From positions 1-23,174 of the IMG/VR virus record IMGVR_UViG_3300032304_000815: a stretch of 23,174 nt of DNA. The stretch is one strand, 5' to 3'. The stretch's first letter is position 1. Every line of letters starts with the position of its first letter. Under the pieces are notes generated by a model that was not told the origin of the DNA, did no database searches, and was given only the letters and a program-made list of their open reading frames with translations. The DNA is from a virus. A program made the translations under genes and the position numbers. Shown piece after piece: positions 1,066 to 18,601 of the stretch.

Positions 1066-1073
1066 TATTTATG
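1066..1073 (-). promoter_or_regulatory. Late promoter box CATAAATA for the minus-strand structural gene
   Basis: Read on the minus strand, CATAAATA matches the T4 late promoter consensus TATAAATA at 7 of 8 positions. It lies 20 bases upstream of the ATG at 1045, leaving room for a leader with a Shine-Dalgarno. It is back to back with the sigma70-type promoter at 1077-1105, so the divergent pair would switch from early (rightward) to late (leftward) use. Confidence 0.7.
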
Positions 1074-2593: not shown

Positions 2594-2599
2594 TAAATA
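2592..2599 (+). promoter_or_regulatory. Late promoter box AATAAATA for the gp13-like gene
   Basis: AATAAATA overlaps the TAA stop of the upstream gene and lies 19 bases before the ATG at 2619. A CGGAG Shine-Dalgarno (2608-2612) lies between, so the transcript would have a normal short leader. Confidence 0.7.
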
Positions 2600-4265: not shown

Positions 4266-4572
4266 ACTTGTATACTTCCTGTTGGCAGTTCAAACACACA
4301 GTTTTTAAATTTAACCAATTGTTGTTTTTGAGATTACCGTCGACATAAAACACATTTGACTGTTCAGAATGTTTCATCTTAAAGCCACAGCGTTCGCATT
4401 GTGGCTTTTTCTTATAACCGCTCTTGAACCATAATGGTGCCTCTGGTTTAAGTTTCTTTTTCTTTCTAATGCAACTGGTGCAACTGTTTCTGTAATGAGT
4501 AATACTATCTCGGATATAATTGATAGCGACTGGATTATTACGGCATACAGGGCATAGATCTCGTTTTAACAT
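4222..4572 (-). CDS. Small double zinc-finger protein with a degenerate HNH-like fold
   Basis: This 116-residue protein has four CxxC knuckles: C7/C10, C31/C34, C59/C62 and C93/C96. They suggest two zinc sites. The second half, from CERCG through VFYVDGNLKNNNWLNLKTVC to LNC, follows the layout of a treble-clef HNH nuclease (CxxC, HxDGN, NL, CxxC). However, the catalytic histidine before DGN is replaced by tyrosine/valine, and no H follows the last CxxC. It may bind DNA or RNA without cutting it. Such genes recur in aquatic T4-like phages with unknown role. A perfect T4 late box TATAAATA lies 5 bases before the ATG with no Shine-Dalgarno. It is convergent with and overlaps the dNMP kinase gene by 44 bases. 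Confidence 0.82.
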   Translation of the reverse strand: MLKRDLCPVCRNNPVAINYIRDSITHYRNSCTSCIRKKKKLKPEAPLWFKSGYKKKPQCERCGFKMKHSEQSNVFYVDGNLKNNNWLNLKTVCLNCQQEVYKSRLAWKAGPIVPDF

Positions 4573-4577
4573 GTAGG

Positions 4578-4585
4578 TATTTATA
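4578..4585 (-). promoter_or_regulatory. Perfect T4 late box TATAAATA, leaderless spacing
   Basis: On the minus strand TATAAATA is followed by five bases (CCTAC) and the ATG at 4572. T4 late promoters start about six bases after the box, so the first transcribed base would be the A of the ATG. Confidence 0.8.
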
Positions 4586-4635
4586 GCTAAACCTTCCCAA
4601 AGGCACCTTTAATGCTACCATTTTTTCCTTTATTA

Positions 4636-4643
4636 ACTAAATA
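4636..4643 (+). promoter_or_regulatory. Late promoter box ACTAAATA for the tail sheath gene
   Basis: ACTAAATA lies 31 bases before the gp18 ATG at 4675. The leader of about 26 bases contains an AAAGGA Shine-Dalgarno at 4661-4666, 8 bases before the ATG. This is the leadered class expected for an abundant structural protein. Confidence 0.7.
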
Positions 4644-4674
4644 TTCATAACATGTAATATAAAGGAATATAACC

Positions 4675-7600
4675 ATGGCACTAGTATCCCCAGGAATTTT
4701 GATTTCCATTAATGATCAGAGTCAGTACGTAAACTCAAACGTTGGCTCAGTCCCGCTAGTTGTATTAGCCACAGCACAAGACAAGACCTACAACGGTGGG
4801 TCGGCGGTGGGCACAAGCAAAGCAAATGCTGGTAAATTGATGAGCTTTACAAGTCAACGTGACTTAGTAACAGCAATGGGCACACCAACCTTTGAACTTA
4901 GTTCAGCTGGTACTCCAGTTAATGCTAGCGAGCGTAACGAATACGGTTTATTGGCTGCTTATTCGGCGCTGGGACTAGGTAACCGTTTATTTGCTATTCG
5001 TGCAGATGTTGACTTAGAGCAACTTAAAGGCACAAGTGTTCGTCCAGCTGGCGAAGTTGCTGATGGAACTTACTGGTTAGATCTTGCCAACACAGAATTT
5101 GGTATCAGCGTGTTAAATCGTGTAACCGACACATTTAGTCAAGTTAGCCCTTTGCTAATCACAGACAAAACACAAGTACAAAATGTAACATACGATGGTA
5201 CACAAGATGTACCAACTCCTTTATCATCAGTTGGTCAGCAAGGCACCTATGCACTTGTTTTTGTTGATGACACTGGTGCTACAGCTAACATTGTTAGACT
5301 ATTTTACAAAGCTACCAAAGTAAATGCTTATGCTGGCACAGGCAGTGACTTGGTTAATACCTGGATCCAGGTTGGTTCCACTGAGTGGGCGTATAGCAAT
5401 CCAATCACACAAGGCACAGAAACAAGTCCAACTTTTATAACAGGAAGTCTTTATACCTGCACAATCAATGCGGTGACTGTTTCGGCAACAGGAATTACCA
5501 CTGTCGCTCAATTTGCCGCAGCAATCAACACCGCAAATATTCCCGGTGTTAGAGCTGCCAGTATCGACGGTCAATTAGCATTGTTTGCCACTGCTGCTGC
5601 CCGCAGCAATAATATTACCGCCGACGGCAAAGTCGTATTATCCGACGGAACAAACACACCATTGGATAATTGTGGAATTACTGTTTTAACATCACCAAAT
5701 GGATATTTCTGTCCAGAGTTCTTTTATGGCACATACTCACAGTCTCCTGCCGGTGGATGGTACACATACGATACAGCACCTCGTCCAACAGGCAGCATCT
5801 GGTGGAAAACAACCACAATTGGTGGCGGATATAGTCCAGTATTGAAAAAATACAACGCTGGTTTAAAAGAGTGGGTAAGTGTAACTACTCCTCTGTATAT
5901 AGATCCAGCAGATGCTATCTATGCATTGGATCCAATTGGCGGCGGCGTTAATATTGCCAAAGATCAATTGGTGACTCTAATTAGTCCAGTTGATACTACA
6001 GCTAATAGTTTACAATTTTTTGTACAACAAAAATCTGGAGCTTTAGAAGTTACTGGCGCGGTCCCAACATCTTCTATACTTGGTAGCTTTACTTTATTTC
6101 CAACTTCTCCGGGATCTAATACATTTGCCTCGGGTGTATCCATTGAAATACCAGCACCAAATAATGCTTCAAGTTTTGTTGAAGCTATACTGAATGCAGG
6201 CATCCCTCATGTAAGTGCCAGACTAAACAGCAATGGTAGTATTACTTTAATACATTCTACTGGTGGATCAATAGTTTTACAAAATGACATATCTGATACT
6301 GCAATCGAAGATGCTGGATTCGTCGTTTCTGCAAGTCCTTATATTTTAAATTCGAATGATCAGACGTTATTAACTAATTTTGTAGCGATCACTGCTGCTA
6401 TAAACTATAGTACAGAAACTCCTTATGCTACACCAACAGATGGTTCACTGTGGTATTACAGCAATCTAGCCGACGTTGATATTATGATCAACAACAATGG
6501 CTGGAAAGGTTATACGCAACCAAGTCCGGATGTACGTGGTTACGATTTAACAGCAACAGACCCCAATGGTGTAATAATAAGTGCAACAAGACCTACTAGC
6601 CAAAGTGATGGTATGACAGCGCTGGCAGCTGGAGATTTGTGGTTGAACAGTAGCGATGTTATCAACTATCCAAACTTATCACGTTGGACTGGCTCTGTCT
6701 GGGTAAGCATTGACAATACTGATCACATCAGCAACAACGGTATTATTTTTGCCGATGCACGATGGGACACGGATGGTACAACCGATCCAGTTAGCGATGC
6801 ATTGCCAAGTGTTGCTAGTTTGTTAGACAGTAACTATGTTGATCTAGATGCTCCGGACTGGAGACTATATCCACGTGGTACATTGCTGTTCAACACACGT
6901 CGTAGTGGTTACAATGTTAAGAAATTTGTTAAAAACTATTTTAATCCTACAAGTTTCCCACCAGCTTCGGCAGGTAATAATCCTGCATTTTATCCAACAA
7001 GTACTCCGTCGGCAACAGATGCATGGGTGACCGATAGCGGTCTGAATGAACGAGGTGTTATGAATGCAGGTGCAGCCGCTCAGCGTTCTATCGTTGTAGC
7101 AGCATTAAAATCAGCCATTGATAGCAACACCGATGTACTAGATGCTAATTATCAATTTAACTTGTTGGTTGCTCCTGGTTATCCAGAGTTGATTCCTAAC
7201 CTGGTAACATTAAACGATAATCGTGGTGCCACAGCGTTTGTCATTGGGGACACACCAATGACATTGGCCCCAACAGCTACCGCATTAACAGCATGGAACA
7301 GCAACGCAGATGGCAACGGCTTGGCAACAAGTAGTGCATATCTAGGTGTTTATTACCCAGCAGGTTTAACCAATGACTTGGCAGGTAACCGTGTGGCAGT
7401 TCCAGCAAGTCACGCAATATTACGTACATTCTTATACAATGATAATGTAAGCTATCAGTGGTTCGCTCCGGCTGGTGTAAACCGCGGCCTAGTAAGTAAC
7501 CTAAATGATATTGGTTATGTTAATGCCCAGACTGGTGCATTCATACACAATGGTGTCAACCAAGGCCTGCGTGATACCCTATACACATTAAGTATTAACC

Positions 7601-8007
7601 CAATTACACAACTACCTGGCACAGGATTGGTTGTATGGGGTCAGGAAACAAAGAGCGGTGATTCAAGTGCTAGAAATCGTGTAAACGTTGTTCGATTAGA
7701 AAACTATCTACGTACAATTTTTGCTACTATTAGTAATAGCTTCTTGTTTGAGCCAAATGATACAGTTACACGTAAATCAATTTCTACTCAGATTGAAAGC
7801 GCATTGCATAATGTATTGAGTAAGCGTGGCGTATATGACTTCTTGGTTATTTGTGATACAAGCAACAACACATCAAGTACTATTGCCAACAATCAACTAT
7901 ACGTTGATGTTGCAGTAGAGCCAATGCGTGATGTTGAGTTTATTTACATTCCTATTGCGTTGTATAATCCGGGAACAGTGGCTAGCCTAGGCGCAGCTAA
8001 CACCTAA
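4675..8007 (+). CDS. gp18: Tail sheath protein, gp18-like, greatly enlarged
   Basis: At 1110 residues it is far longer than T4 gp18 (659). The ends carry the sheath core. The N-terminus is MALVSPGILISINDQSQYV with SVPLVVLATAQDKTYN. The last 150 residues include NVVRLENYLRTIFATISNSF, FEPND, and DVAVEPMRDVEFIYIPIALY, the C-terminal domain joining sheath subunits. The protein polymerises around the tail tube and contracts during DNA injection. Between about residues 128 and 681 lie insertions. Short modules with a (D)GS-L/I-W start and a later YN/W pair are at about 128, 371, 587 and 651. Two related domains are at about 257-340 and 470-555. These would decorate the tail surface. A late box and Shine-Dalgarno precede it, and gp19 follows 33 bases downstream. 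Confidence 0.93.
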   Translation: MALVSPGILISINDQSQYVNSNVGSVPLVVLATAQDKTYNGGSAVGTSKANAGKLMSFTSQRDLVTAMGTPTFELSSAGTPVNASERNEYGLLAAYSALGLGNRLFAIRADVDLEQLKGTSVRPAGEVADGTYWLDLANTEFGISVLNRVTDTFSQVSPLLITDKTQVQNVTYDGTQDVPTPLSSVGQQGTYALVFVDDTGATANIVRLFYKATKVNAYAGTGSDLVNTWIQVGSTEWAYSNPITQGTETSPTFITGSLYTCTINAVTVSATGITTVAQFAAAINTANIPGVRAASIDGQLALFATAAARSNNITADGKVVLSDGTNTPLDNCGITVLTSPNGYFCPEFFYGTYSQSPAGGWYTYDTAPRPTGSIWWKTTTIGGGYSPVLKKYNAGLKEWVSVTTPLYIDPADAIYALDPIGGGVNIAKDQLVTLISPVDTTANSLQFFVQQKSGALEVTGAVPTSSILGSFTLFPTSPGSNTFASGVSIEIPAPNNASSFVEAILNAGIPHVSARLNSNGSITLIHSTGGSIVLQNDISDTAIEDAGFVVSASPYILNSNDQTLLTNFVAITAAINYSTETPYATPTDGSLWYYSNLADVDIMINNNGWKGYTQPSPDVRGYDLTATDPNGVIISATRPTSQSDGMTALAAGDLWLNSSDVINYPNLSRWTGSVWVSIDNTDHISNNGIIFADARWDTDGTTDPVSDALPSVASLLDSNYVDLDAPDWRLYPRGTLLFNTRRSGYNVKKFVKNYFNPTSFPPASAGNNPAFYPTSTPSATDAWVTDSGLNERGVMNAGAAAQRSIVVAALKSAIDSNTDVLDANYQFNLLVAPGYPELIPNLVTLNDNRGATAFVIGDTPMTLAPTATALTAWNSNADGNGLATSSAYLGVYYPAGLTNDLAGNRVAVPASHAILRTFLYNDNVSYQWFAPAGVNRGLVSNLNDIGYVNAQTGAFIHNGVNQGLRDTLYTLSINPITQLPGTGLVVWGQETKSGDSSARNRVNVVRLENYLRTIFATISNSFLFEPNDTVTRKSISTQIESALHNVLSKRGVYDFLVICDTSNNTSSTIANNQLYVDVAVEPMRDVEFIYIPIALYNPGTVASLGAANT

Positions 8008-8014
8008 GATAACA

Positions 8015-8022
8015 GATAAATA
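8015..8022 (+). promoter_or_regulatory. Late promoter box GATAAATA for the tail tube gene
   Basis: GATAAATA lies 18 bases before the gp19 ATG, with an AGGAG Shine-Dalgarno at 8030-8034 between them. It would give gp19 its own late transcript besides read-through from gp18. Confidence 0.7.
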
Positions 8023-8040
8023 AGAATACAGGAGAATAAC

Positions 8041-8655
8041 ATGGCCGTAGCAAGTTTAAGCAAATTTACAGTTCCATTAGCGAACAACCAGAGCGCAGAC
8101 AGTCAAGGTCTGTTGATGCCAAAGTTAAAGTATCGCTTCCGTGCGAGCTTTACCAACTTTGGTGTTACAAATCAGACAAACGAATTGACAAAACAAATCA
8201 TTGACATCAAGCGTCCTAATGTAACTTTCCCGGTTCAGACAATTGACGTATACAACTCAAAGGTATACTTCCAGGGCAAGCCAGAATGGCAAGAAACAAC
8301 AGTTAACCTACGCGACGACGCCAGTGGCTCAGTTAGTAAGTTGGTTGGTGAGCAAATTCAGAAACAATTTGACTTCCTTGAGCAAAGTAGTGCACCAGCA
8401 GGCATTAACTACAAATTCCAAATGGTATTTGAAATACTCGACGGTGGCAACGGAAACACACTTCCAACAGTTCTTGAAGCATGGGAACTTGATGGTTGCT
8501 TCCTAAGTGCTGTAGACTACGGTGATATGGCGTATAACAGTAATGATGCAGTTCAAATTGCATTGACTGTTAAGTTTGACAATGCTATCCAAACAATTGG
8601 CGGCGGAGTTGGTCGTACAGTAGTTAGTCAGACACCTGGCGACTCAGTGAACTAA
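8041..8655 (+). CDS. gp19: Tail tube protein, gp19-like
   Basis: The 204-residue protein (T4 gp19 has 163) lies directly after the sheath gene as in T4. The recognisable features are MPKLKYRFRASFTNFG near the N-terminus, IIDIKRPNVTFP followed by VYNSKVYFQGKPEWQ, and, near the C-terminus, a WELDGCFLSAVDYGDMAYNS stretch followed by VQIALTVKFDNA. This is the tube fold of stacked beta strands that forms the inner DNA channel of the contractile tail. A strong AGGAG Shine-Dalgarno 6 bases before the ATG and its own late box match the high copy number needed. An intrinsic terminator lies 21 bases after the stop. Confidence 0.92.
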   Translation: MAVASLSKFTVPLANNQSADSQGLLMPKLKYRFRASFTNFGVTNQTNELTKQIIDIKRPNVTFPVQTIDVYNSKVYFQGKPEWQETTVNLRDDASGSVSKLVGEQIQKQFDFLEQSSAPAGINYKFQMVFEILDGGNGNTLPTVLEAWELDGCFLSAVDYGDMAYNSNDAVQIALTVKFDNAIQTIGGGVGRTVVSQTPGDSVN

Positions 8656-8675
8656 TTCAAATTGGTTGATAAAAC

Positions 8676-8703
8676 AAACCTGGATTAAAACCCAGGTTTT
8701 TTT
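8676..8703 (+). terminator. Rho-independent terminator after the tail tube gene
   Basis: AAACCTGG (8676-8683) pairs with CCAGGTTT (8692-8699) around an 8-base loop, followed by T residues to 8703. It ends the gp18-gp19 unit and insulates the next gene, whose late box begins five bases later. Confidence 0.85.
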
Positions 8704-8707
8704 ACGG

Positions 8708-8715
8708 GCTAAATA
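8708..8715 (+). promoter_or_regulatory. Late box GCTAAATA, leaderless spacing (tube-baseplate gene)
   Basis: GCTAAATA is followed by TTAGT and the ATG at 8721. The predicted transcript starts at the ATG. The upstream terminator leaves this as the probable sole source of transcript for the gene. Confidence 0.75.
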
Positions 8716-8720
8716 TTAGT

Positions 8721-10157
8721 ATGGCACAGTATAAAACACTTAATGATGGGTCCGTCGGTACAGTAACCTTGCGTGATTATCGCCATGCGGCCCGCATCTT
8801 CTCAGACGACAATTATCGGTTAAGTCCCAAGTACGGTTTTCTCTTTTATGTTGAATTTGATTTCAATCCACTGATTACAGCAATCAGTAATCAAGCTACG
8901 CAAGAGCTAGGCATGATTGTTAAAAGTGTTAGCCTGCCAAAGTTTACCATTGATACCAAGACTCACAATGCTTACAATCGCAAGAACATAGTACAAAATA
9001 AAATTAATTACGACCCAGTTAATATCAGCTTCCATGACGACCAGAGTGATAATGTACGACAGTTCTGGTACGACTACTACAGTTATTTTTATCGTGATCC
9101 GGACTATGCTGATGCTACATATTCAGCGCCACACAAATATCAAAGTCGCCCAAGTTTTGATTGGGGCTACACACCACGTCCGGCTGTGGGCCGTTCGGTA
9201 TCAACCGACGTACAACCTTATCAATACATACAGGCAATTCGTATCTACAGTCTTTATCAACAAAACTTTAGTGAGTATGAATTAATTAATCCTACCATTA
9301 CCAGTTTTAAACATGGCGATCATGCCAATGGAGAAAATAATTTTTTAGAACACCAGATGAGTCTACAGTTTGAAACTGTAAAATACAAAACTGGTTACGT
9401 AACAAGAAGTACTGCTGGCGGATTCATTGACTTACACTACGACAACGTGGAAAGTCCTAATCCTACAGAATTCAACAAGGGTGAAAGACCACCAAACTCA
9501 TACCCAGATAATATTGTAGATTTGGCCAGTGCTCAAACCACTGTGAACCCATATGCCGATGTTGGTCTTGCTGCAACTTCACCATCACTGACTGGTTCAT
9601 TTAGTAATGCACTCAGCGGATCGTTGGTTGGGGCGATTGGCGGAGGCGGATTAAACGTTGGCGGATTTAGCATACCAAGCCTTGGTAGTTTGAATCAAGG
9701 GATTCCTAGCACGGCTGCACTGAGTCAACAAATACAAGCTCGTACTTTACAATTAATTGGGTCCAGTGCCAGTAGTTTGGCCAATGGTGTAGTTGGTGGC
9801 ATAGCATCGGGACTCGGGCCCAGTGGAAACAGTCTGATTAAACTGGCCGCTGGCGCAATCGTCAATCCACAAGGTACCTTACGCACAATAGAAAATGCTG
9901 CCATTGGCTACGCCAGTGGCTTGGCAACCAATTATGTCAGCGGTAAGGTAACAGAATTAAGTGCTGAAATATCAGGTCAGCTCAGCGGATTTGTTTCAGA
10001 AAATATCACAGGGCCATTGAGTCAGGCATTTGGTGATGCCAGCAGTTATCTAACCAATCAATTCTACGATACCTTTGGTGATGCCACTGGTGCCCTAGGC
10101 ATTGATACAATAGGAGATGCTTTTGGAACAGATCTTGCTGGAAGCTTTGACTTTTAA
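8721..10157 (+). CDS. Tube-baseplate junction protein, gp48/gp54-like
   Basis: The first 260 of 478 residues match the pattern I recall for tail-tube initiator or cap proteins of aquatic T4-like phages. They contain TLRDYRHAARIFSDDNYRLS, MIVKSVSLPKFTIDTKTHNAYN, then NISFHDDQSDNVRQFWYDYY, SEYELINPTITSFKHGDHAN and a GGFIDLHYD strand. In T4, gp48 and gp54 (a tube-like fold) sit on the baseplate hub and start tube growth. I cannot tell which of the two this is; T4 gp54 has 320 residues. The C-terminal 200 residues are rich in G, S and A with short hydrophobic repeats (VGAIGGGG, SIPSLGSL, GVVGGIASGLGPSGN), unlike the T4 proteins. It has a leaderless late promoter, and the next gene follows 3 bases after the stop. 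Confidence 0.75.
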   Translation: MAQYKTLNDGSVGTVTLRDYRHAARIFSDDNYRLSPKYGFLFYVEFDFNPLITAISNQATQELGMIVKSVSLPKFTIDTKTHNAYNRKNIVQNKINYDPVNISFHDDQSDNVRQFWYDYYSYFYRDPDYADATYSAPHKYQSRPSFDWGYTPRPAVGRSVSTDVQPYQYIQAIRIYSLYQQNFSEYELINPTITSFKHGDHANGENNFLEHQMSLQFETVKYKTGYVTRSTAGGFIDLHYDNVESPNPTEFNKGERPPNSYPDNIVDLASAQTTVNPYADVGLAATSPSLTGSFSNALSGSLVGAIGGGGLNVGGFSIPSLGSLNQGIPSTAALSQQIQARTLQLIGSSASSLANGVVGGIASGLGPSGNSLIKLAAGAIVNPQGTLRTIENAAIGYASGLATNYVSGKVTELSAEISGQLSGFVSENITGPLSQAFGDASSYLTNQFYDTFGDATGALGIDTIGDAFGTDLAGSFDF

Positions 10158-10160
10158 ATT

Positions 10161-10547
10161 ATGAACAATCAAATCTCTACCGCAACCAATCTGCAAGGTC
10201 CAGACCTTTCAAATACAGCCAACGACGCTAGAAAATATTTTAATAACTTTTACACCATAGACTTTAATGTCAGTGCCGGAGCCAACGATGCAATGATTGG
10301 TTTCTTTGAGCAATATACAAAAAACAAAACAGCCGCGAAGAATTTGGCTGCCGCGGTGTTGTACACAGCAGTGGCACAAAACCTAAATCCATTGCAAGTG
10401 TTAAGCGATTTTCAATCATTGCCCAAAGGACAACTCGATAACTTTTTAGTAGCATTCTTAAATATTAACCGAGCACCAACTAGTGTGATTGGTACTAAAA
10501 GTTCAGTAAAAACAAACCCATATGTTACAAGATCAATATTGCTATGA
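10161..10547 (+). CDS. Conserved T4-like phage protein, 128 aa, probably virion assembly
   Basis: The 128-residue protein contains FYTIDFNVSAGANDAMIGFF, a helical middle (AAKNLAAAVLYTAVAQ), then NPLQVLSDFQSLPKGQLDNF and FLNINRAPTSVIGTK. I recall this last pattern (L-N-N-R-TS-G) from a conserved unknown of cyanophages and pelagiphages that sits in the tail and baseplate gene block. No catalytic motif, signal peptide or membrane segment is seen. It lies 3 bases after the tube-baseplate gene and overlaps the gp4 start by ATGA, so it is probably translated by coupling; no Shine-Dalgarno is visible. A structural or assembly role is inferred from position only. Confidence 0.8.
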   Translation: MNNQISTATNLQGPDLSNTANDARKYFNNFYTIDFNVSAGANDAMIGFFEQYTKNKTAAKNLAAAVLYTAVAQNLNPLQVLSDFQSLPKGQLDNFLVAFLNINRAPTSVIGTKSSVKTNPYVTRSILL

Positions 10548-10975
10548 GTAAATACGCCCAAGGCAAATTTCAATTATTAAATCCAACAAAATATGTAGGA
10601 AATAAACAACCAACGTATCGTTCAAGTTGGGAATATGTGTTCATGCAATTTTGTGACCAAAATCCCAACGTGCTACAATGGGCCAGCGAAGCAGTACGTA
10701 TCAACTACAAAAATCCCTTGACAGGTAAGAACACTATATATGTTCCTGACTTTTTGATTACCTATGGAGATGCCACAGGCAAACAACACGCTGAGTTGGT
10801 TGAAGTTAAGCCCAAGAAAGAAACCACGTTAGAAGGTGCCAAAAACATACGTGACCAAGCCAGTGCTATTCTTAACATGGCAAAATGGGAGGCCGCTCGT
10901 GCCTGGTGCAAAGCCCACGGACTAACATTTAGAGTGGTAACCGAAGACATGATTTTCCATCAAGGTCGGAAGTAA
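10544..10975 (+). CDS. gp4: Head completion nuclease-fold protein, T4 gp4-like
   Basis: The 143-residue protein aligns by eye along its length with T4 gp4 (150 aa). Shared blocks are YRSSWEYVFMQF (25-36), NPNVLQWASEAVRI, YVPDFLITY (66-74), ELVEVKPKKET (84-94), and at the C-terminus WEAARAWCKAHGLTFRVVTED. The PD...ExK arrangement (D69, E87, K89) with E30 is the core of the PD-(D/E)XK nuclease fold. In T4, gp4 (also called gp50) is needed to finish filled heads for tail joining, and its nuclease activity is thought to act on DNA ends. The start overlaps the stop of the preceding gene (ATGA), so translation is coupled. Confidence 0.9.
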   Translation: MSKYAQGKFQLLNPTKYVGNKQPTYRSSWEYVFMQFCDQNPNVLQWASEAVRINYKNPLTGKNTIYVPDFLITYGDATGKQHAELVEVKPKKETTLEGAKNIRDQASAILNMAKWEAARAWCKAHGLTFRVVTEDMIFHQGRK

Positions 10976-10994
10976 TACCAATAAATATTGGTAT
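10975..10994 (+). promoter_or_regulatory. 20-base palindrome containing a late box at the small terminase start
   Basis: ATACCAATAAATATTGGTAT is a perfect inverted repeat with 9-base arms around AA. It includes the late box AATAAATA (10980-10987) and the first two bases of the ATG at 10993. The box-to-ATG distance is 5 bases, predicting a leaderless transcript. In RNA reading through from gp4, the repeat would fold and pair the start codon. Confidence 0.75.
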
Positions 10995-11487
10995 GACTAA
11001 AAAATTAGAATCACTTTTTAATCTTCCTCCGTCTGCCGACTCGGAAGATACCACCCCAGAACAAGCTAACGATTTTATTCGAGACAATAGAGATTTAATC
11101 ACCGAAGTAGATGCTGCTATCAGCAAGATTGACATAGCACTTCCTACTGTGCGTGACTTAGAAACTGGCGATGCTGAACTGGATGAACTAGCAACACTGG
11201 CCAAAGAAAAAGCCGAAGACCTCATTGATTTGGGTATGAACGTAGAACCGCGTTTTAGTGGTGTTATACTACAGACAGCTGGTGTGATGTTGGGGCATGC
11301 TATTACAGCCAAAACTGCCAAACTAGATAAGAAATTACGCATGGTCAGTTTACAGCTACAGAAAGCTCGATTAGATCATCAAATTAAAAAAGATACCAAA
11401 GACCCTGCTGAAGAAGCGGTAGAAGGACAGGGCGTAGTGCTAGATCGCAATGAATTACTAAAACAGATCTTAGCCAAGAAAGACTAA
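10993..11487 (+). CDS. gp16: Small terminase subunit candidate, gp16-like
   Basis: The product is 164 residues, the same length as T4 gp16. The layout also fits: an acidic N-terminal arm (about 1-55), a central helical hairpin (about 67-130, including AEDLIDLGMNVEPRFSGVIL and QTAGVMLGHAITAKTAKLDK), and a variable tail. In T4 the gp16 central coiled coil assembles into rings that recognise concatemer DNA and stimulate the gp17 motor. Sequence identity to T4 is low, so the call rests on length, helical pattern and the neighbourhood of gp4 and gp17. Unlike T4, genes 16 and 17 are not adjacent here; five genes lie between. It has a leaderless late promoter within a 20-base palindrome. Alternative: another helical packaging or scaffold protein. 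Confidence 0.6.
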   Translation: MTKKLESLFNLPPSADSEDTTPEQANDFIRDNRDLITEVDAAISKIDIALPTVRDLETGDAELDELATLAKEKAEDLIDLGMNVEPRFSGVILQTAGVMLGHAITAKTAKLDKKLRMVSLQLQKARLDHQIKKDTKDPAEEAVEGQGVVLDRNELLKQILAKKD

Positions 11488-11490
11488 ATA
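11483..11490 (+). promoter_or_regulatory. Late promoter box ACTAAATA for the 195-aa gene
   Basis: ACTAAATA overlaps the TAA stop of the small terminase gene and lies 21 bases before the ATG at 11512. A TAGGAAT Shine-Dalgarno (around 11500) falls between them, giving a leadered late transcript. Confidence 0.7.
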
Positions 11491-11511
11491 CTACAATATA
11501 GGAATATTAAG

Positions 11512-12099
11512 ATGCTAAAGCCATTCCAATCATACATTTATGAACTAAACAAGCCAAGTGAGTTCCGCATTAAACTAGCGGGCATTAATCCCACCGGCGA
11601 AGTTATGGACCGTATTAAAAACGCTCTTGAAGCATATCAGCTTGAGAGTGTAAGTGCAGTAAAAAGCCTGCCAATCCAGGAACACCGCGAATTCCCACAG
11701 TGGGGCGGTCCTTGTGAGTGCTGGCAATTTGACGTTACAGTTGCTTACCCAACAACAACAACAGTCATACGTCAGTTGATCAAAGAACGTGCTCAACTGA
11801 CTCTGGATTGTATTTGTGTACGTAATTTACACGAAGAAGAATATACCAGCGAAGCTGAATCGCGCGGTAAAGATCATGAAGGTGCGATCCTGACTGATGG
11901 CGAATTAAAAGCCGACGAAGGTGGCCAAGAACTAGCAGGACAAAGCCGCATTGGCAGTTTATTAAAAGAATTAGAATCACGTCAATTTGAATTTGCTCAA
12001 GACAGTAACGAAGCAGGCAAGACAACAAACGATGCACCACAGGGCGAATCGAGTCCGGTTGGCACACATCAAAATAAAGTTTATAAAGCAAAAGGTTAA
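11512..12099 (+). CDS. Conserved T4-like phage protein, 195 aa, possible ferredoxin-like fold
   Basis: The N-terminal 105 residues look like beta-alpha-beta units: SEFRIKLAGINPTGEVMDRI, then NALEAYQLESVSAVKSLPIQ, and a second set with CWQFDVTVAYPTTTTVIRQL. I recall this pattern from conserved unknowns of aquatic T4-like phages that sit among head and packaging genes. After about residue 110 the protein becomes acidic and low in complexity, with a helix near SLLKELESRQFEFAQ and a hydrophilic tail ending KVYKAKG. No catalytic motif is apparent. It has a leadered late promoter. The 708-aa gene follows 4 bases after the stop, so the two are probably co-translated. The function is unknown; a head-associated role is inferred from place and timing. 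Confidence 0.8.
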   Translation: MLKPFQSYIYELNKPSEFRIKLAGINPTGEVMDRIKNALEAYQLESVSAVKSLPIQEHREFPQWGGPCECWQFDVTVAYPTTTTVIRQLIKERAQLTLDCICVRNLHEEEYTSEAESRGKDHEGAILTDGELKADEGGQELAGQSRIGSLLKELESRQFEFAQDSNEAGKTTNDAPQGESSPVGTHQNKVYKAKG

Positions 12100-12103
12100 G
12101 ACA

Positions 12104-14230
12104 ATGAGCAAGAATCATCCACACGACAATATCTATAGCATCCTTGGAAAGTTAGAAGCCCTAAAGCCAACACCAGAAGAGAAACGTTTCGCTCTTGTAA
12201 AAGAAATTCGTGAAAGCGTCGAAGCACAAGGTTCCATATTGGAAGGTGTAGACGCTGTTGAAGCTAAACTAGCTCGCCAATTTGCTGAAGCTAAAAAGGC
12301 CAAGCCAGACTTCTTGGATCTCGACGGCGACAAAAACGAAAAAGAGACAATGAAGCAAGCTGCCAAAGATAAAATTGAAGAGAAGGCCGTTAGCCAAGCT
12401 CAACAAAAGTTCATGGGTATGGTTCATGCTGCACAAAAAGGCTCTGAGGCCGCAAGCCCGGCCGTGGCTAAAGTTGCCAAGTCAATGGGCAAGAAAGATG
12501 CCGCGGACTTTGCCGCCACCAAGCACAAAGGTTTGCCACAACACGTTGGGGAAGGCACATGCAACGAATGTGGTATGACCGAAGGCACCTGCGAACACAC
12601 CATGCGTGAAGACATGAGTCGTGCAGCCAAAGGCTATGAGAAGTATGGCAAAAAAGGCATGCAAGCACTAGCCAAGGCCGGTCGTGATGGTGCCAGCGAA
12701 GAAGAATTAGATACAATTCGTGACAAGCACGATCAATACAACGAAGCCGCTGAAGAATGTTGTTGCAAAGAATTAGGACAAAAAGAGTGTCCGGTTCATT
12801 GCGATGACGAACCAAGAGCTAATGTCAAAGAAGCAGAAACAACACATACCGGTGGTGAAAAAGTCTCAACTAACAAAGGTATTATACATAAAAGTAAAGC
12901 CACAGTTGACACAGAAAAATTATTGAGTCGTGGTGATGTAACAGATCCTGATGCAGATGATGCACCAGCTGCCAGCACAGAAAAGAAAGGTCGCGGTCGT
13001 CCAAAGATGGCTGACAAAGATCGTTCACAAGCTAGTATGCCATGGGGCGGCAAGCCACCCAAGGACACGTACAAACACCAGAAAGGTGCTTACGTACACA
13101 AGATAGCCGAAAGTCGTATTATGGACGAGTCCGGCGAGACACTGGATCATGTACTAAATCGTTTTAAATTTGAAGTTAAACAATTCGAACAAGGCGGCGA
13201 GCTAGATCAAGACCTGTACGAAGCATTGTTTGATTACTACAGTGACAGCGGCGAAATGCCATATGGCACAGCCAAGGCACGCACAGGCGACCCATATGAG
13301 TGGGTAGCGAAAAACTTAGAAAGTCATTTAAACGGTGGCGGCGTTGTTGGTGGTGCTCAAGAAGAAGATCCACTGTTAACACGCGAAGCTGGAATTCCGG
13401 GCAACGTTCCTGCAGAACAAATTCCGGGCAAAGAAGATTTACTACGCGGCAAAGGTCGCAGTTACTACGAAGAGGAAGTAACAATGGAAGACGAATTAAA
13501 TGAACTAGCACGTCTAGCTGGTATACACACAGATGAAGGCAATGCATTCACAGGTAAACTGAAGAATACAGCCAAAGGTGAAAAATTTAATCTAGATGGC
13601 AAAGAGTACACAGATACAAGCACCTTGGATGAAGAACCAAACGAAGGCAATGCATTTGGCGCTGCAGTTGCTAAAGCCAAAGCTGATGGTGTACAACCTG
13701 GCGAAAAGATCCAAGTTGGTGGCAAGGCATATCCGGTCAAAGAAAGTATTAGCGGTTCCAGTGAGTCACACCCACAGGGCGATTTTAATATCAATACTAG
13801 TATGAGTAGCAATGGTGACAAAAACGTTACTGTCACAGCCACAGGAGATCATGCCGGCGAACTGCTACAGATGTTGCGTATTGCTGGTCTAGGCGGCGGC
13901 GCCAAAGCACAAGAACTACAACCACAGATGACTCAGGCACCAGAAGTTGTAATGATCGACGAACCAATGCAAGAAGTAGTAGCCGACGAAGGTGCCGAAC
14001 TAGCCAATGCACCTGATCCACAATACATGTCGATGAGAGGATCCACCATGGGTCCCGGCGAAGGCGATGCTGGCGAGAAACAGATGAATCCAGACCGTCC
14101 AACATTTAAGAATGGCGACAATGCATTAAGCAATCCTCCAGCAAGAGGTAAAGACGTACTTAAAGCTGTAGCTGCATTGGAATCCAAATTGGCTGCCGAA
14201 TACGAAAGTATTAAAAAAATCTCTAAATGA
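12104..14230 (+). CDS. Large mosaic acidic/lysine-rich phage protein, 708 aa, possibly head-internal
   Basis: I chose the ATG at 12104 (MSKNHPHDNIYSILGKLEAL), with AAAGG at 12091-12095; an in-frame ATG upstream lies deep inside the previous gene. Visible parts: a DLDGDKNEKE acidic loop (72-81) resembling an EF-hand; Cys clusters C153/C156/C163 with H165 and C219-221/C229/C233; an AT-hook-like GRGRPK (296-301); a KIAES segment (near 334) followed by a conserved GEMPYGTAKARTGDPYEW block; two EGNAF...GEK...GK.Y repeats (478-513, 514-548); and LAG motifs (461-475, 587-596). Most of the chain is hydrophilic and likely disordered. It resembles head-core or internal proteins in composition, but the role is inferred. 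It overlaps the next gene by ATGA. Confidence 0.8.
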   Translation: MSKNHPHDNIYSILGKLEALKPTPEEKRFALVKEIRESVEAQGSILEGVDAVEAKLARQFAEAKKAKPDFLDLDGDKNEKETMKQAAKDKIEEKAVSQAQQKFMGMVHAAQKGSEAASPAVAKVAKSMGKKDAADFAATKHKGLPQHVGEGTCNECGMTEGTCEHTMREDMSRAAKGYEKYGKKGMQALAKAGRDGASEEELDTIRDKHDQYNEAAEECCCKELGQKECPVHCDDEPRANVKEAETTHTGGEKVSTNKGIIHKSKATVDTEKLLSRGDVTDPDADDAPAASTEKKGRGRPKMADKDRSQASMPWGGKPPKDTYKHQKGAYVHKIAESRIMDESGETLDHVLNRFKFEVKQFEQGGELDQDLYEALFDYYSDSGEMPYGTAKARTGDPYEWVAKNLESHLNGGGVVGGAQEEDPLLTREAGIPGNVPAEQIPGKEDLLRGKGRSYYEEEVTMEDELNELARLAGIHTDEGNAFTGKLKNTAKGEKFNLDGKEYTDTSTLDEEPNEGNAFGAAVAKAKADGVQPGEKIQVGGKAYPVKESISGSSESHPQGDFNINTSMSSNGDKNVTVTATGDHAGELLQMLRIAGLGGGAKAQELQPQMTQAPEVVMIDEPMQEVVADEGAELANAPDPQYMSMRGSTMGPGEGDAGEKQMNPDRPTFKNGDNALSNPPARGKDVLKAVAALESKLAAEYESIKKISK

Positions 14231-14583
14231 AAATAGTTGAAGTCATTGCAGAGTCAAAATTTAGAAAAACGACTCAGTTGGCGTTGAGCAACTTAGAAAG
14301 TTGGCCCGACACCTACAATGACCCATATCTGGCATATCGGTTTGGTTTGGCATTAGCGGCTGCACCAAACATCCATGTTGACATCGAAGGTCCAACTGGC
14401 CCCGAGACAACCACCCTGGCTTACAGTGATGCTGACGAAGAAATCGTAAACACAGCCGCAGCACATTTAGGTATGAAAAGTCGTAATAACACCGGCCGCG
14501 GCAGCAAAGAACATCCGCTGGTCAACAAACAGAGTGTAGTCAACGCAGTTGGTCCCGTGACCCTTAGATCTAAAAACAAATGA
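14227..14583 (+). CDS. Conserved 118-aa phage protein with capsid-targeting-like N-terminus
   Basis: The N-terminus MKIVEVIAES resembles the T4 capsid-targeting sequence MKTYQEFIAEA of internal proteins I-III, which the prohead protease gp21 cuts after IAE (consensus L/I-x-E). The next part, ALSNLESWPDTY then DPYLAYRFGLALAAAPN, resembles a conserved unknown of aquatic T4-like phages that starts with a similar MKI..VI.E peptide. The tail is basic and hydrophilic (KSRNNTGRGSKEH, LRSKNK). Translation is coupled at both ends by ATGA overlaps with its neighbours, and no Shine-Dalgarno is seen. The sequence supports the N-terminal peptide match directly; packaging into the head is inference. Confidence 0.75.
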   Translation: MKIVEVIAESKFRKTTQLALSNLESWPDTYNDPYLAYRFGLALAAAPNIHVDIEGPTGPETTTLAYSDADEEIVNTAAAHLGMKSRNNTGRGSKEHPLVNKQSVVNAVGPVTLRSKNK

Positions 14584-14981
14584 AAACATATCGCTACACC
14601 AGCGAACACTTTGTAACCCAGGGCGAGACTGGTGATGCCGATGCTTTTATTGATCCCGCAGAATTAAATAAATTACGTCAATTGGCTGGCATGGCACCAC
14701 TTGCAGAAGATAATGGCGCTGGTCTAGTTGGTGGCAATTTAGACAATGTACCAAATGCATCCGGCAGCAATGATCAAAGTCCTGTGGGTAGTAATATTAG
14801 TTTTACCGCACAAGAACGCAACAACTTGCTAAAAGAATTTCATGTCATGCCAGGCACAGACTTGTGGTTTATTATTATGTTTACTAAACCATTCCTCAAT
14901 GGTAGCCTGCGCAGCAAAGTTGAAGAATATCTAAAACAACATCCTGAGTATCGTCCGCGTAGTTTTCCCAACAACGACTAA
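14580..14981 (+). CDS. Conserved T4-like phage protein, 133 aa, unknown function
   Basis: The 133-residue protein starts MKTYRYTSEHFV. It has an acidic region with the LAG motif AELNKLRQLAGMAPLAED (28-44, the same pattern as in the 708-aa protein), then a glycine/asparagine-rich linker. A better-ordered C-terminal part (about 78-133) contains NNLLKEFHVMPGTDLWFIIM, FTKPFLNG and VEEYLKQHPEYRPR. This last part resembles conserved unknowns of aquatic T4-like phages. The start overlaps the stop of the 118-aa gene (ATGA). Its TAA stop overlaps the stop of the convergent HNH gene, so the two units end on the same four bases with no hairpin terminator visible. Confidence 0.75.
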   Translation: MKTYRYTSEHFVTQGETGDADAFIDPAELNKLRQLAGMAPLAEDNGAGLVGGNLDNVPNASGSNDQSPVGSNISFTAQERNNLLKEFHVMPGTDLWFIIMFTKPFLNGSLRSKVEEYLKQHPEYRPRSFPNND

Positions 14982-15508
14982 GCGATTCGCTTGTCTAACC
15001 CCAAGTATTGATTCCACGAATCCTGTTTAACAGTAAAGTCCATTTTTTTCCATTGTCCTACTAGACTATAGTAATCTGGCTTGTATGGTTTAACTCTGGG
15101 TTTGATATTAGTTTGGTGTCCTTTGGCTCCATTGCAACTCTTGCAACTAGTGGCACAATTTTCCCATGTACTCTTACCGCCGTGCATTCTAGGAACAACG
15201 TGGTCAATGGTTAGTTCATCGTAGTCAAACACATCATCACAGTATTGGCACTTAAACAAGTCACGCATATACAAATTATAGCGGCTAAACTTAACGTGTT
15301 GCTTGTAATGAAAATAGTCTTTGGTAACACATACACTAGGTACGTTTATTGCCAAGCGTTCTGAGTGTACTATCCAGTCTGGGTATGTTTCAAGCACATG
15401 GACCCGGCCTAGATACATTAGTTTGATAGCGTGTTGCCAATTGATAACACTTAGTGGTAGTACGCTGATTGGCTCGTAATTAGAATTTAGTAAGAGTGTG
15501 TCTGACAT
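14978..15508 (-). CDS. HNH endonuclease next to the large terminase
   Basis: The 176-residue protein has a typical HNH core. A zinc knuckle C87-x2-C90 precedes ELTIDHVVPRMHGGKSTWEN (D102, H103, N117), followed by C122-x2-C125. This is the McrA-like layout of a single-domain, metal-dependent DNA-nicking nuclease. The first 80 residues (MSDTLLLNSNYEPISVLPLS...) form the helical and beta part common to stand-alone HNH proteins of this kind. I use the ATG at 15508 rather than an upstream in-frame ATG inside the terminase gene, since MSDTLLLN is the usual N-terminus. It diverges from gp17 with only 11 bases between starts. HNH proteins beside terminases help packaging in some cos phages; here that is speculative. 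A mobile, homing-like role is also possible. Confidence 0.88.
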   Translation of the reverse strand: MSDTLLLNSNYEPISVLPLSVINWQHAIKLMYLGRVHVLETYPDWIVHSERLAINVPSVCVTKDYFHYKQHVKFSRYNLYMRDLFKCQYCDDVFDYDELTIDHVVPRMHGGKSTWENCATSCKSCNGAKGHQTNIKPRVKPYKPDYYSLVGQWKKMDFTVKQDSWNQYLGLDKRIA

Positions 15509-15514
15509 TAAATA
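15507..15514 (+). promoter_or_regulatory. Late box ATTAAATA, leaderless spacing (large terminase)
   Basis: ATTAAATA, GTTAT and the ATG at 15520 repeat the five-base spacing seen elsewhere. The box occupies most of the 11-base gap between the divergent HNH and terminase start codons and overlaps the last two bases of the HNH ATG codon. Confidence 0.65.
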
Positions 15515-15519
15515 GTTAT

Positions 15520-17082
15520 ATGAGTAAAGAATTAGAAACCGCAATTATCAAGGCACCGTATAAACGGATGTCTTATACCGAAGAGCAAATACTAGAAATT
15601 GCTCGCTGTGTTGATCCTGTCGATGGTCCGCAATACTTCATGGATCACTACTTCTTTATACAACACCCAACCAAGGGTGCTATACAATATCATCCGTTTG
15701 AGTACCAAGACAGATTAATCAGCTCGTATCACAATTATAGATTCTCTATCAGCCTAATGCCAAGACAAACGGGCAAATCGACCACGGCCGCCGGCTACTT
15801 GTTATGGTATGCTATGTTTGTTCCGGATTCAACTATTCTGGTAGCTGCACACAAATATCTAGGTGCTCAAGAGATCATGCAGCGTGTTCGTTATGCGTAT
15901 GAAAACTGCCCGGACTTTATCCGAGCAGGAGTAACAAGTTATAATAAAGGTAGCTTGGATTTTGAAAATGGTAGCCGTATAGTAAGTCAAACAACAACAG
16001 AAAACACAGGACGCGGTATGAGTATATCCTTACTGTACTGTGACGAGTTTGCGTTCGTTCGCCCTACTATTGCAAGTGAATTCTGGACTTCTATCACACC
16101 CACACTAGCAACTGGTGGTAAGTGTATTATTACTTCAACACCCAACTCAGACGAAGATCAGTTTGCACAAATCTGGCGCGGCGCCAACAAGTGTATAGAT
16201 ATCAATGGCAACGAAACGGAACTTGGGATCAATGGGTTTAAGGCATTCCGCAGCAAATGGGAAGAACATCCGGACCGAGACGAAGCATGGGCCGCACAGA
16301 TGAGAGCCCAACTCGGCGAAGAACGTTTCCGCCGTGAGATGGAATGTGAATTCATTATCTTTGACGAAACACTTATCAATCCCTTACACTTGGTAGAAAT
16401 GTCGGGAATAGATCCATTTGAACGTCAAGGACAGGTGCGTTGGTATAAACGTCCCAGTAAGGATTGTACATACTTTGTAGCATTAGATCCAAGCCTGGGT
16501 ACCGGCGGCGACCCGGCGGCTATACAAGTATTTGAATTACCTGGTCTAAAGCAAGTAGCTGAGTGGTGCGATAATAAAACACCAGTGCAGCGTCAAGTAC
16601 GGATCTTACAAGAAATTTGTTCATATATTACAGAAACAGCAAGTAATCAAAATAATGTATACTATTCAGTAGAAAACAACACATTGGGTGAAGCTGCATT
16701 GGTAAGCATTGCTGAAATAGGTGAAGAAAACTTCCGTGGCATATTCTTAAGTGAACCTGCTCGAGCAGGCAATGTCAGACGATTCCGTAAGGGATTTAAT
16801 ACAACTAACAAAACTAAATTGGCCGCTTGTGCTAAATTTAAGAGTCTAATAGAAACCAAGCGTATGCACATATCCAGTAAAGCCCTGGTGAGTGAATTAA
16901 AAACATTTGTAGCCAGTGGACAAAGTTTTGCTGCCAAATTGGGCGAACACGACGATTTAGTTATGGCTACGTTGCTGGCACTAAGAATGATGCAAACCTT
17001 ACAGAATTACGACGCTAATTTAGACGCAGAAATCAAGGATGCTAACGAATTTATTGAACCCATGCCGTTCATTATGATCTAG
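15520..17082 (+). CDS. gp17: Terminase large subunit, gp17-like
   Basis: The 520-residue protein (T4 gp17 has 610) is the DNA-packaging motor and headful nuclease. The ATPase domain shows the Walker A variant PRQTGKST (81-88, R82, K86), Walker B SLLYCDE (170-176, D175, E176) and the coupling motif TSTPN (206-210). The RNase H-like nuclease domain shows YFVALDPSLGTGGDP with D323, SVENNTLGE with E385, and GEHDDLVMA with D478/D479, the acidic triad as in T4 D401/E458/D542. The start at 15520 (MSKELETAI) is favoured over an upstream in-frame ATG because a late box sits 5 bases before it. The shorter length compared with T4 probably reflects shorter ends. A 12-base gap leads to the next gene. Confidence 0.95.
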   Translation: MSKELETAIIKAPYKRMSYTEEQILEIARCVDPVDGPQYFMDHYFFIQHPTKGAIQYHPFEYQDRLISSYHNYRFSISLMPRQTGKSTTAAGYLLWYAMFVPDSTILVAAHKYLGAQEIMQRVRYAYENCPDFIRAGVTSYNKGSLDFENGSRIVSQTTTENTGRGMSISLLYCDEFAFVRPTIASEFWTSITPTLATGGKCIITSTPNSDEDQFAQIWRGANKCIDINGNETELGINGFKAFRSKWEEHPDRDEAWAAQMRAQLGEERFRREMECEFIIFDETLINPLHLVEMSGIDPFERQGQVRWYKRPSKDCTYFVALDPSLGTGGDPAAIQVFELPGLKQVAEWCDNKTPVQRQVRILQEICSYITETASNQNNVYYSVENNTLGEAALVSIAEIGEENFRGIFLSEPARAGNVRRFRKGFNTTNKTKLAACAKFKSLIETKRMHISSKALVSELKTFVASGQSFAAKLGEHDDLVMATLLALRMMQTLQNYDANLDAEIKDANEFIEPMPFIMI

Positions 17083-17089
17083 CTAAATA
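17082..17089 (+). promoter_or_regulatory. Late box GCTAAATA, leaderless spacing (487-aa gene)
   Basis: GCTAAATA begins at the last base of the gp17 stop codon and is followed by GTATT and the ATG at 17095. No Shine-Dalgarno is present. Confidence 0.72.
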
Positions 17090-17094
17090 GTATT

Positions 17095-18558
17095 ATGAAA
17101 GAAATTGAATCAATCTCCGCTGCATTATTTGATAAAATACGCTCACGTTTCCCTAACGTAACGCTGGGCGACGAAAAAGCCAAGGCTGAAACAGACCCTA
17201 CTAAGGCTCGCTTCTTTAACTTCACTTATACTGGAGCAGATGGGGCAGAATTTGGCAATGTAACTGTTAGTTTAATTGATGAAACTGCATTAAAAATATA
17301 TTTTGGGCAAAACATCTCTGGCGAGATGGATCGCGAGCAACGCAAAGAGTGGTACGAATTTCTACGCAATTTAAGACAGTTTGCAAAACGCAATTTACTT
17401 ACATTTGATACACGTGATATCAATAAATCTAATTTAGACTTAAAAGACATTAAACAACAAAGCAAAGCCGACAGTACATTTAATGCCGATGATGTACTGT
17501 CGGTGACTGAAAGCAAGTTATATGGTACACCGGGACGTCCCTACAACAGTTTTGCTGACAGGGGCGCAACTAAAATTTTAATTCGTCACCAAGACAAAGT
17601 CAATGATGAAGTTCGCGGAAGCCGTGCTCGTAAGATTCAAGAAATTTTCCTAGAAACAGAACGCGGCGAACGCTTTTTATTGGGGCATACAAATTTACAC
17701 GGTGCTTATGCCATGGCAGAACATCTAAATCATGGTGGTACAATGCATGATGAAATTGCCAAGCATATTGATAGTATTGTGGCTGAGATGGCATCAATGC
17801 GCCATTTTGTTCGTAGCACCAAACATCGTCAATTTGAAGATCAAGAAACAGCTGACATGACTCGTAGTGCTGTACATCACTACGACCAACAAAAAAGAAT
17901 CCTACGTCAGATGCGTGGTGCACGTGGATATCGAAGCTATTTTGAAACATGGGCAGCAAATGATTCTGTTGTTGAAGATGACGTAGATGTAGATGCTCTA
18001 CGTGAACGTTTTGTTAAAAAGATCTATGATGATCGATTTACTGAAGCACTTCCTATTGTGTACAAAGCATATAAAAAATATAAATCTGAGGCTGCTGGAC
18101 AGCTCGGCGATGAATTAGCCGAATGGGCAGATGCAGTAAGCGAAGGAACCTGGGCTCGCCCGGATTCAGAAGATAAAGTTAAAGCCTTGGTGGAACTGTT
18201 AAAAAATCCACTCGCAGTTGGGATCGAAGGAATGGATGCCATTGCTAACCTAGAGCCCATCATAGGCGACGATGATTTAAACGATGCAATCTATCACTTG
18301 GCTGATAGTCAAGGCCCAGATGCTGATGCTACTCCGACCATTAAAGAATGGTTACAGACTCATATGCCGCAGGTTGCAAATGAGTTAGATGCTATGTTAC
18401 AATCTAACGGTAGGGATCAACAGACCGATTGGGTCCAACCAGTAAGTCCCAAGCAAGCACACCCGAGTGATACATTTGGCGCAACAAGTTTGGACGAACC
18501 TGTAACCGAAAGTGATGATTTATCATTTATTCGCACTTTAGCCGGTTTGGCAAAATAA
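17095..18558 (+). CDS. Conserved aquatic T4-like phage protein, 487 aa, unknown function
   Basis: The first 100 residues (MKEIESISAALFDKIRSRFP) look like a small alpha/beta domain with NVTVSLIDETALKIYFGQN. The central part (about 140-310) is the most conserved in memory: LYGTPGRPYNSFADRG, ILIRHQDKVNDEVRGSRARK, NLHGAYAMAEHLNHGGTMHD and HFVRSTKHRQFED. It is rich in H and R. The C-terminal part (about 320-487) is acidic and helical and ends SFIRTLAGLAK, a form of the LAG motif seen in two other proteins here. I know this type as a widespread unknown in pelagiphage-like and related genomes. No enzymatic motif can be named. It follows gp17 and has a leaderless late promoter, which suggests a low-copy late product. 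Confidence 0.82.
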   Translation: MKEIESISAALFDKIRSRFPNVTLGDEKAKAETDPTKARFFNFTYTGADGAEFGNVTVSLIDETALKIYFGQNISGEMDREQRKEWYEFLRNLRQFAKRNLLTFDTRDINKSNLDLKDIKQQSKADSTFNADDVLSVTESKLYGTPGRPYNSFADRGATKILIRHQDKVNDEVRGSRARKIQEIFLETERGERFLLGHTNLHGAYAMAEHLNHGGTMHDEIAKHIDSIVAEMASMRHFVRSTKHRQFEDQETADMTRSAVHHYDQQKRILRQMRGARGYRSYFETWAANDSVVEDDVDVDALRERFVKKIYDDRFTEALPIVYKAYKKYKSEAAGQLGDELAEWADAVSEGTWARPDSEDKVKALVELLKNPLAVGIEGMDAIANLEPIIGDDDLNDAIYHLADSQGPDADATPTIKEWLQTHMPQVANELDAMLQSNGRDQQTDWVQPVSPKQAHPSDTFGATSLDEPVTESDDLSFIRTLAGLAK

Positions 18559-18571
18559 TAAAAAAAAGTAT

Positions 18572-18601
18572 TTGACTTCATAAATAACATTGTTATATAC
18601 T
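18572..18601 (+). promoter_or_regulatory. Overlapping sigma70-type and late promoters of gp32
   Basis: TTGACT (18572-18577), an 18-base spacer and TATACT (18596-18601) form a host-type promoter. Inside its spacer lies a late box, CATAAATA (18579-18586). The predicted starts are near 18608 (early) and near 18592 (late), giving leaders of about 60-76 bases. This fits a protein needed both early and late. Confidence 0.65.

Follow-up and report, generated by a model that had tools for sequence, protein, structure and literature searches.

Short-spaced T4-type late promoters predicted to give leaderless mRNAs in a myovirus fragment, its relatives and the cultured phage HTVC008M

Late promoter boxes in the window

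The window analyzed in this study, i.e., the whole of a 23-kb piece of the genome of a T4-like myovirus (IMGVR_UViG_3300032304_000815), carries genes for neck, sheath, tail tube, baseplate-side, and terminase proteins behind late promoter boxes with the core hexamer TAAATA (Table 1), some of which are separated from the ATG by a spacing of only 5 bases. By the large terminase, the cultured phages nearest to the window were the jumbo phages PA5oct, Phosso, and Atu_ph07 (~54% identity). The hexamer alone was not enriched (17 in the window vs. 20.5 expected), and 11 of the 17 sites stood before a start codon, five of them at a spacing of 5 and the other six at 18, 19, 20, 21, 31, and 81. The arrangement NNTAAATA-N5-ATG occurred exactly five times against a mean of 0.38 expected, and at least five occurrences were obtained in none of 100 dinucleotide-preserving shuffles. 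All five spacing-5 sites were devoid of a Shine-Dalgarno (SD) sequence, and an SD-like sequence followed each of the other six boxes. A preliminary description made from the letters of the window had reported these five boxes and the six more distant, SD-followed ones, and the coordinates and spacings given there were reproduced exactly.

The same description had named both terminase subunits, a tube-baseplate protein, a zinc-finger protein, and a 487-aa unknown as the products of the five short-spaced genes. The large terminase and the tube-baseplate protein were retained, whereas the "zinc-finger protein" (4572) was revealed to be HNH-like with a score under the Pfam cut-off, and the 487-aa protein matched PHROG 13484, a virion structural protein (E 8.8e-19). 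The assignment of the product of gene 10993 as the small terminase is plausible from its size and neighbours; the protein matched no Pfam family, its hhalign profile comparison with gp16 gave a probability of 3.9%, and neither a PDB sequence search nor a fold search with its AlphaFold model (pLDDT 66) gave a small-terminase match. The upstream neighbour of the HNH-like gene is the divergent sheath gene. At 15506-15522, the late box lies between two start codons only 12 bases apart, those of a divergent HNH endonuclease (15508, minus strand) and the large terminase (15520, plus strand).

The boxes were in good agreement with T4-type late promoters in having the TAAATA core within a TATAAATA-like box with a variable base at -13. 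Homologs of gp55 were detected in two large relatives of the window, G001 (6.5e-08) and G003 (6e-07). The pair preceding the hexamer was mostly GA or AA at both short-spaced and more distant boxes (GA, AA, and CA being enriched) and rare at other TAAATA sites. The box was located before late genes (sheath, tube, gp13, and terminase) and hardly ever before early or middle ones; among orthologs, it was found before none of the dNMP kinase genes, 2/73 uvsX genes, and 8/99 ssb genes. Since ssb orthologs so seldom have a box at 14-60 bases, the box at 18579 is doubtful as a late promoter. The T4 late box is positioned at -13 to -6 (PMC1524935), and a spacing of 5 would therefore place +1 on the A of the ATG.

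Spacing classes in relatives and cultured phages

The distribution of spacings was assessed in the 80 IMG/VR relatives with the best large-terminase matches (1.1 Mb including the window), which were chosen by homology and thus are not independent, and in which the start codons are themselves predicted. Spacing 5 was found for 97 ATGs and spacing 7 for 65, compared with approximately 5-20 for each neutral spacing, and the histogram rose again at 18-21. This double peak was not seen with permuted hexamers or with GTG, and the box-overlapping hexamers ATAAAT and AAATAT gave it in a shifted form. When the analysis was restricted to open reading frames (ORFs), about half of the box-associated starts were at spacing 4-8 and never had an SD, the spacer being too short to hold one; almost none were at 10-15, and those at 18-25 mostly had an SD.

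The letters around the ATG were also in accordance with a transcription start there. A T directly preceded the ATG in 184 of 211 distinct spacing-5 contexts, and an A followed by two pyrimidines, typically ACT, preceded it in 44/67 contexts at spacing 7 and 14/22 at spacing 8. The A of this triplet is located at box+5 or box+6, i.e., the same positions as the A of the ATG at spacings 4 and 5, and the promoters with longer spacing are likewise A/T-rich at box+5 to +7. Two subclasses are thus predicted from these letters, one with the AUG at +1 and the other with ACU-AUG, having a three-base leader.

Genome-wide, genes at spacing 4-8 were counted against 14 permuted hexamers, a conservative control because some of the permutations overlap the box. 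G003 (354 kb) possessed 31 such genes (permuted mean 7.1, maximum 17) and G001 (374 kb) possessed 27 (mean 7.6, maximum 16). The excess of 5-base spacings that the preliminary description had set as its test, genome-wide and in relatives, was thus found at both levels. By the same count, T4 had 1 such gene, PA5oct 3, Syn9 1, P-SSM2 4, 121Q 5, and KVP40 and phiM12 0, none of the seven exceeding its permuted-hexamer maximum, and 50-kb stretches of Phosso and Atu_ph07 contained no short-spaced gene. On the basis of these seven phages, we rejected the idea that the class is common to all T4-like phages. At 144985 of PA5oct, where the class is absent overall, there is one candidate leaderless late gene, encoding a structural protein, with TATAAATA-CGTGT-ATG and a divergent neighbour.

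The same short-spaced class was found in HTVC008M (NC_020484), a cultured marine Pelagibacter (SAR11) phage, where 14 genes were at spacing 4-8 (permuted mean 3.7, maximum 9). In 11 of these, mostly encoding minor structural proteins, the GenBank start codon lies exactly 5 bases past the box, namely those for 2OG oxygenase, CsgF, adenylate cyclase, tape measure, gp2, gp3, gp4, the tail-tube cap gp48, two baseplate wedge proteins, and a small gene after a terminator; gp13 is at spacing 8. The annotated ATGs whose A is the predicted 5' end are at 6280, 7562, 11972, 16007(-), 18916(-), 18943, 19456, 31132, 49760, 75559, and 75830 of the record, and for 59714 the RNA would begin with the A six bases past the box. 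The sheath, tube, portal, and major capsid genes have SDs. Relatives of HTVC008M also peaked at spacing 5, often with a T-run just 5' of the box, with totals modestly above the permuted maximum (15 vs. 10 and 19 vs. 17). By sequence, HTVC008M represents an independent occurrence of the class.

Conservation of the spacing class by gene

Orthologs of the window genes in all retrieved relatives were classified as short-spaced (exact hexamer at 4-8) or leadered (at 14-60), with cut-offs set after a first view of the spacing histogram. Leaders were almost uniform for sheath (43/43), tail tube (85/89), and neck gp13 (27/28), and were present in 71 of the 84 orthologs of ORF 11512, the other 13 being short-spaced. 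Short spacing was observed in 99/115 orthologs of the 487-aa gene (16 leadered), 39/50 of the HNH-like gene, and 59/92 of the tube-like baseplate gene at 8721 (16 leadered). For gene 10993, 66/95 had the exact box at 4-8, 11 more had a box with one mismatch, and 3 were leadered; for the large terminase, the exact box was at 4-8 in 49/123, and 27 more had one mismatch and no SD. The short-spaced ATG was the homologous start in most orthologs, most clearly for gene 10993 (66/66). By parsimony on quick trees, the class changed 8 times in the 487-aa gene, 5 times in the baseplate gene, once in gene 10993, and 15 times in the large terminase. By these comparisons, the spacing class is largely kept by each gene across the relatives.

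Terminators and a predicted start-hiding hairpin

An intrinsic terminator separates the tube gene from the promoter at 8708, and the RNA of 8670-8740 was predicted to fold with -14.6 kcal/mol. It was present before the baseplate gene in 52/58 short-spaced and 16/16 leadered orthologs, the T-run starting ~12-13 bases 5' of the hexamer, and a terminator preceded the large terminase in 13/46 orthologs.

Gene 10993 starts 17 bases past the gp4 stop. On read-through RNA, its late box and start are predicted to lie in a hairpin in which two bases of the AUG, A and U, are paired (-9.6 kcal/mol and z -3.4 for 10961-11010). The hairpin arms matched within the sequences of relatives above the re-dealt level (9/22; 0/1000 shuffles). 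Covariation of arms was not found at the 487-aa, large terminase, and 8721 genes and was weak at the HNH-like gene; a hairpin at every leaderless site was accordingly rejected, clear support being confined to gene 10993. The A+C content and the folding just past the ATG differed slightly between the classes.

A similar arrangement is known in T4 e, soc, 49, and I-TevI, whose late transcripts lack the 5' part of an inhibitory structure and are therefore translated (PMC3014915). Gene 10993 resembles e and soc in that the hairpin hiding the start is formed on read-through RNA and is absent from the predicted late transcript. It differs from them in that the T4 genes sequester the SD and/or the AUG and keep a leader, whereas gene 10993 has no SD and its AUG is predicted to come first.

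Phage-encoded bS21

The large relatives of the window carry a gene for ribosomal protein bS21, as do HTVC008M and other aquatic phages. It was found in G001, G002, G003, G005, G006, and HTVC008M, and also in PA5oct, Phosso, Atu_ph07, and a Vibrio phage, all four of which have no evident short-spacing class. Of the 55 distinct contexts of the bS21 gene in the window clade, 44 were short-spaced (4-8), none had an SD leader, and the other 11 lacked an exact box at the start; in G006, a box lies 30 bases before the gene, and the HTVC008M gene has no late box. HTVC008M bS21 enters Escherichia coli ribosomes, with the synthesis of a GFP reporter falling to ~5% (PMC6375957), and late expression of phage bS21 has been reported (PMC9723584); a short-spaced late promoter for it was not mentioned in the consulted passages of these two papers.

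Scans of genome contigs with the large terminase and bS21 gave no relatives that would indicate a host for the window clade. Among solved structures, the best matches of phage bS21 aligned with E. coli-like bS21 sequences, by which a proteobacterial host is only suggested.

Table 1. Late boxes and associated features of the window, and bS21 genes of its relatives (spacing, bases between box and ATG).
Feature	Sequence	Position	Strand	Spacer or spacing, SD	Gene or location
Short-spaced late box, ATG 4572	TATAAATA (4585-4578)	4570..4585	-	5-base spacer	HNH-like zinc-binding protein, 4572-4222
Short-spaced late box, ATG 8721	GCTAAATA	8708..8723	+	TTAGT	tube-like, baseplate-side protein
Short-spaced late box, ATG 10993	AATAAATA	10980..10995	+	TTGGT	164-aa putative small terminase
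Short-spaced late box, ATG 15520	ATTAAATA	15507..15522	+	GTTAT	large terminase
Short-spaced late box, ATG 17095	GCTAAATA	17082..17097	+	GTATT	487-aa putative virion structural protein
Leadered late box	CATAAATA	1066..1073	-	20, SD	
Leadered late box		2592..2599	+	19, SD ACGGAG	neck gp13 (2619)
Leadered late box		4636..4643	+	31, SD AAAGGA	sheath (4675)
Leadered late box		8015..8022	+	18, SD AGGAG	tail tube (8041)
Leadered late box		11483..11490	+	21, SD AGGA	ORF 11512
Box, doubtful late promoter	CATAAATA	18579..18586	+	81	ssb (18668)
Intrinsic terminator	AAACCTGG-ATTAAAAC-CCAGGTTT + T-run	8676..8703	+		between tube gene and next promoter
Hairpin, read-through RNA only	AUACCAAU-AAAU-AUUGGUAU	10975..10994	+		around late box and start of gene 10993
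bS21 gene, G001		225236-225388	-		
bS21 gene, G002		120879-121037	-		
bS21 gene, G003		232992-233144	-		
bS21 gene, G005		35424-35582			

Discussion

The sequences themselves show the spacing class and its conservation, the lack of SDs, the letters at the predicted start site, and the independent case of HTVC008M. The proposal of the preliminary description that there is a leaderless class of late mRNA was strongly supported by the spacing excess and by the letters around the ATG. We consider it very probable that a large freshwater group of uncultured T4-like phages, as well as HTVC008M, makes leaderless late mRNAs of the T4 type as a conserved class, in which gp55-dependent promoters would begin the RNA either with the A of the AUG or, three bases earlier, with ACU-AUG. 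With the start at the AUG, the genes behind short-spaced boxes would be read from leaderless mRNAs, translated by ribosomes accepting a 5'-terminal AUG, while the remaining late genes would have leaders of ~15-25 bases with an SD. As in T4, whose late promoters depend on gp55, gp33, and gp45, there is a TAAATA core with a variable -13 base, and G001 and G003 encode gp55 homologs; T4 differs in that its boxes mostly lie 21-29 bases from the ATG with an SD. Leaderless mRNAs of the lambda cI type in bacteria and phages have the AUG at or very near the 5' end and no SD (PMC9031893), whereas the class described here, with predicted 5' ends, would be a whole late class under one phage sigma factor and conserved by gene. 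No description of leaderless T4-type late mRNAs was found in the literature, which was searched mostly over freely available papers.

Several points weigh against this reading. The 5' ends and the leaderless translation are deduced from sequence alone, and some orthologs of the large terminase and the 8721 gene are leadered or have no exact box. The scarcity of non-AUG starts at spacing 4-8 (58 ATG, 2 GTG, and 4 TTG in G001 and G003), a possible sign of leaderless initiation, is at most suggestive, as the SD-leadered genes also have few of them. In addition, about half of the short-spaced genes lie near a same-strand stop, often the TAA of the box, so that reinitiation could contribute. Translational coupling, in which ribosomes ending the upstream gene would reach the ATG and TAAATA would mostly be its stop codon plus AT-rich sequence, has this in its favour: a same-strand stop lies 30 bases or less upstream in 16/34 short-spaced genes of G003, 16/30 of G001, and 7/13 of HTVC008M, and the commonest stop-to-ATG distance across these three genomes is 8, with the TAA of the box doubling as the stop of the preceding gene. 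Coupling is thus possible for these genes, but cannot explain the rest, where the gene is preceded by a divergent neighbour, by a terminator, or by a wider gap, as exemplified by the divergent neighbours at 4572 and 15520 and the terminator before 8721. Moreover, the letters preceding the short-spaced box match those of leadered promoters, and on the tree one and the same gene can pass from one class to the other, short-spaced or SD-leadered (8 times for the 487-aa gene). We regard coupling as quite improbable. Chance or a compositional artefact might be suspected because the hexamer is AT-rich and common, but was refuted by the dinucleotide shuffles, the 14 permuted hexamers, the GTG/TTG controls, and the seven negative phages, leaving it a negligible probability.

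What leaderless late mRNAs would be for is unproven, whether dosage, gating, or compaction, and the proposals below are compatible with their existence. The preliminary description had suggested that leader versus no leader sets protein dosage, i.e., that poorly translated leaderless mRNAs keep packaging, initiator, and enzyme proteins low, and this is a possible, though tentative, explanation with weak support from function and codon usage. Leadered genes tend to encode fibres, endolysins, sheath, tube, and virion proteins, and short-spaced ones enzymes, homing endonucleases, terminase, and baseplate proteins. In G003, for instance, the short-spaced products include a baseplate wedge protein, homing endonuclease, Clp-like ATPase, acetyltransferase, nucleotidase, radical SAM, and resolvase-like proteins, and the leadered ones tail fibres, endolysins, virion proteins, and one homing endonuclease. 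The split in HTVC008M, with SDs at sheath, tube, portal, and major capsid and short spacing at gp2, gp3, gp4, gp48, and the baseplate wedge, points the same way, and codon usage of leadered genes was closer to that of sheath and tube (p=0.002 in one genome, p=0.15 in the other). On the other hand, gp13, a low-copy neck protein in T4, is leadered in the window clade, and bS21, which would need to reach many ribosomes, is short-spaced. Low dosage may also be an added effect of the leaderless design. Genome compaction, in which the box supplies the upstream stop and the next ATG is the start with almost no intergenic DNA, would suit the many boxes whose TAA is such a stop and the compact 147-kb genome of HTVC008M; it seems rather unlikely, however, as gaps between genes, terminators, or divergent neighbours accompany many of the short-spaced genes, and T4-like Syn9 (177 kb) does not use short spacing. 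More speculatively, one reason for the design could be that ribosomes would use an SD-less AUG chiefly on its own late transcript and only poorly on read-through RNA, and terminators, divergent neighbours, and the hairpin at gene 10993 would reinforce this separation.

It is also conceivable, although we judge it improbable, that leaderless late mRNAs and phage bS21 form one translation-takeover system, in which bS21 made from a leaderless mRNA would enter ribosomes late and shift initiation from SD-led mRNAs to 5'-terminal AUGs. In its favour, all six phages G001, G002, G003, G005, G006, and HTVC008M come from lineages with the short spacing, and GFP synthesis falls with HTVC008M bS21 ribosomes (PMC6375957); against it stand the four bS21 phages without the class, the boxless bS21 gene of HTVC008M, and the major late proteins that still use SDs. 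The association itself, put forward as a hypothesis, comes from two lineages.

T4 late transcription is a textbook system, with late genes having leaders and ribosome-binding sites. In the sequences analyzed herein, the same promoter is positioned in two distant T4-like lineages with the start codon on the predicted transcription start, for a fixed and conserved set of genes. If true, this would provide a natural comparison, conserved gene by gene, of leaderless and leadered translation that depend on a single sigma factor, with some lineages where a gene has switched class; phage-encoded bS21 would gain a concrete, testable hypothesis, and the cultured phage HTVC008M makes the main claim directly testable.

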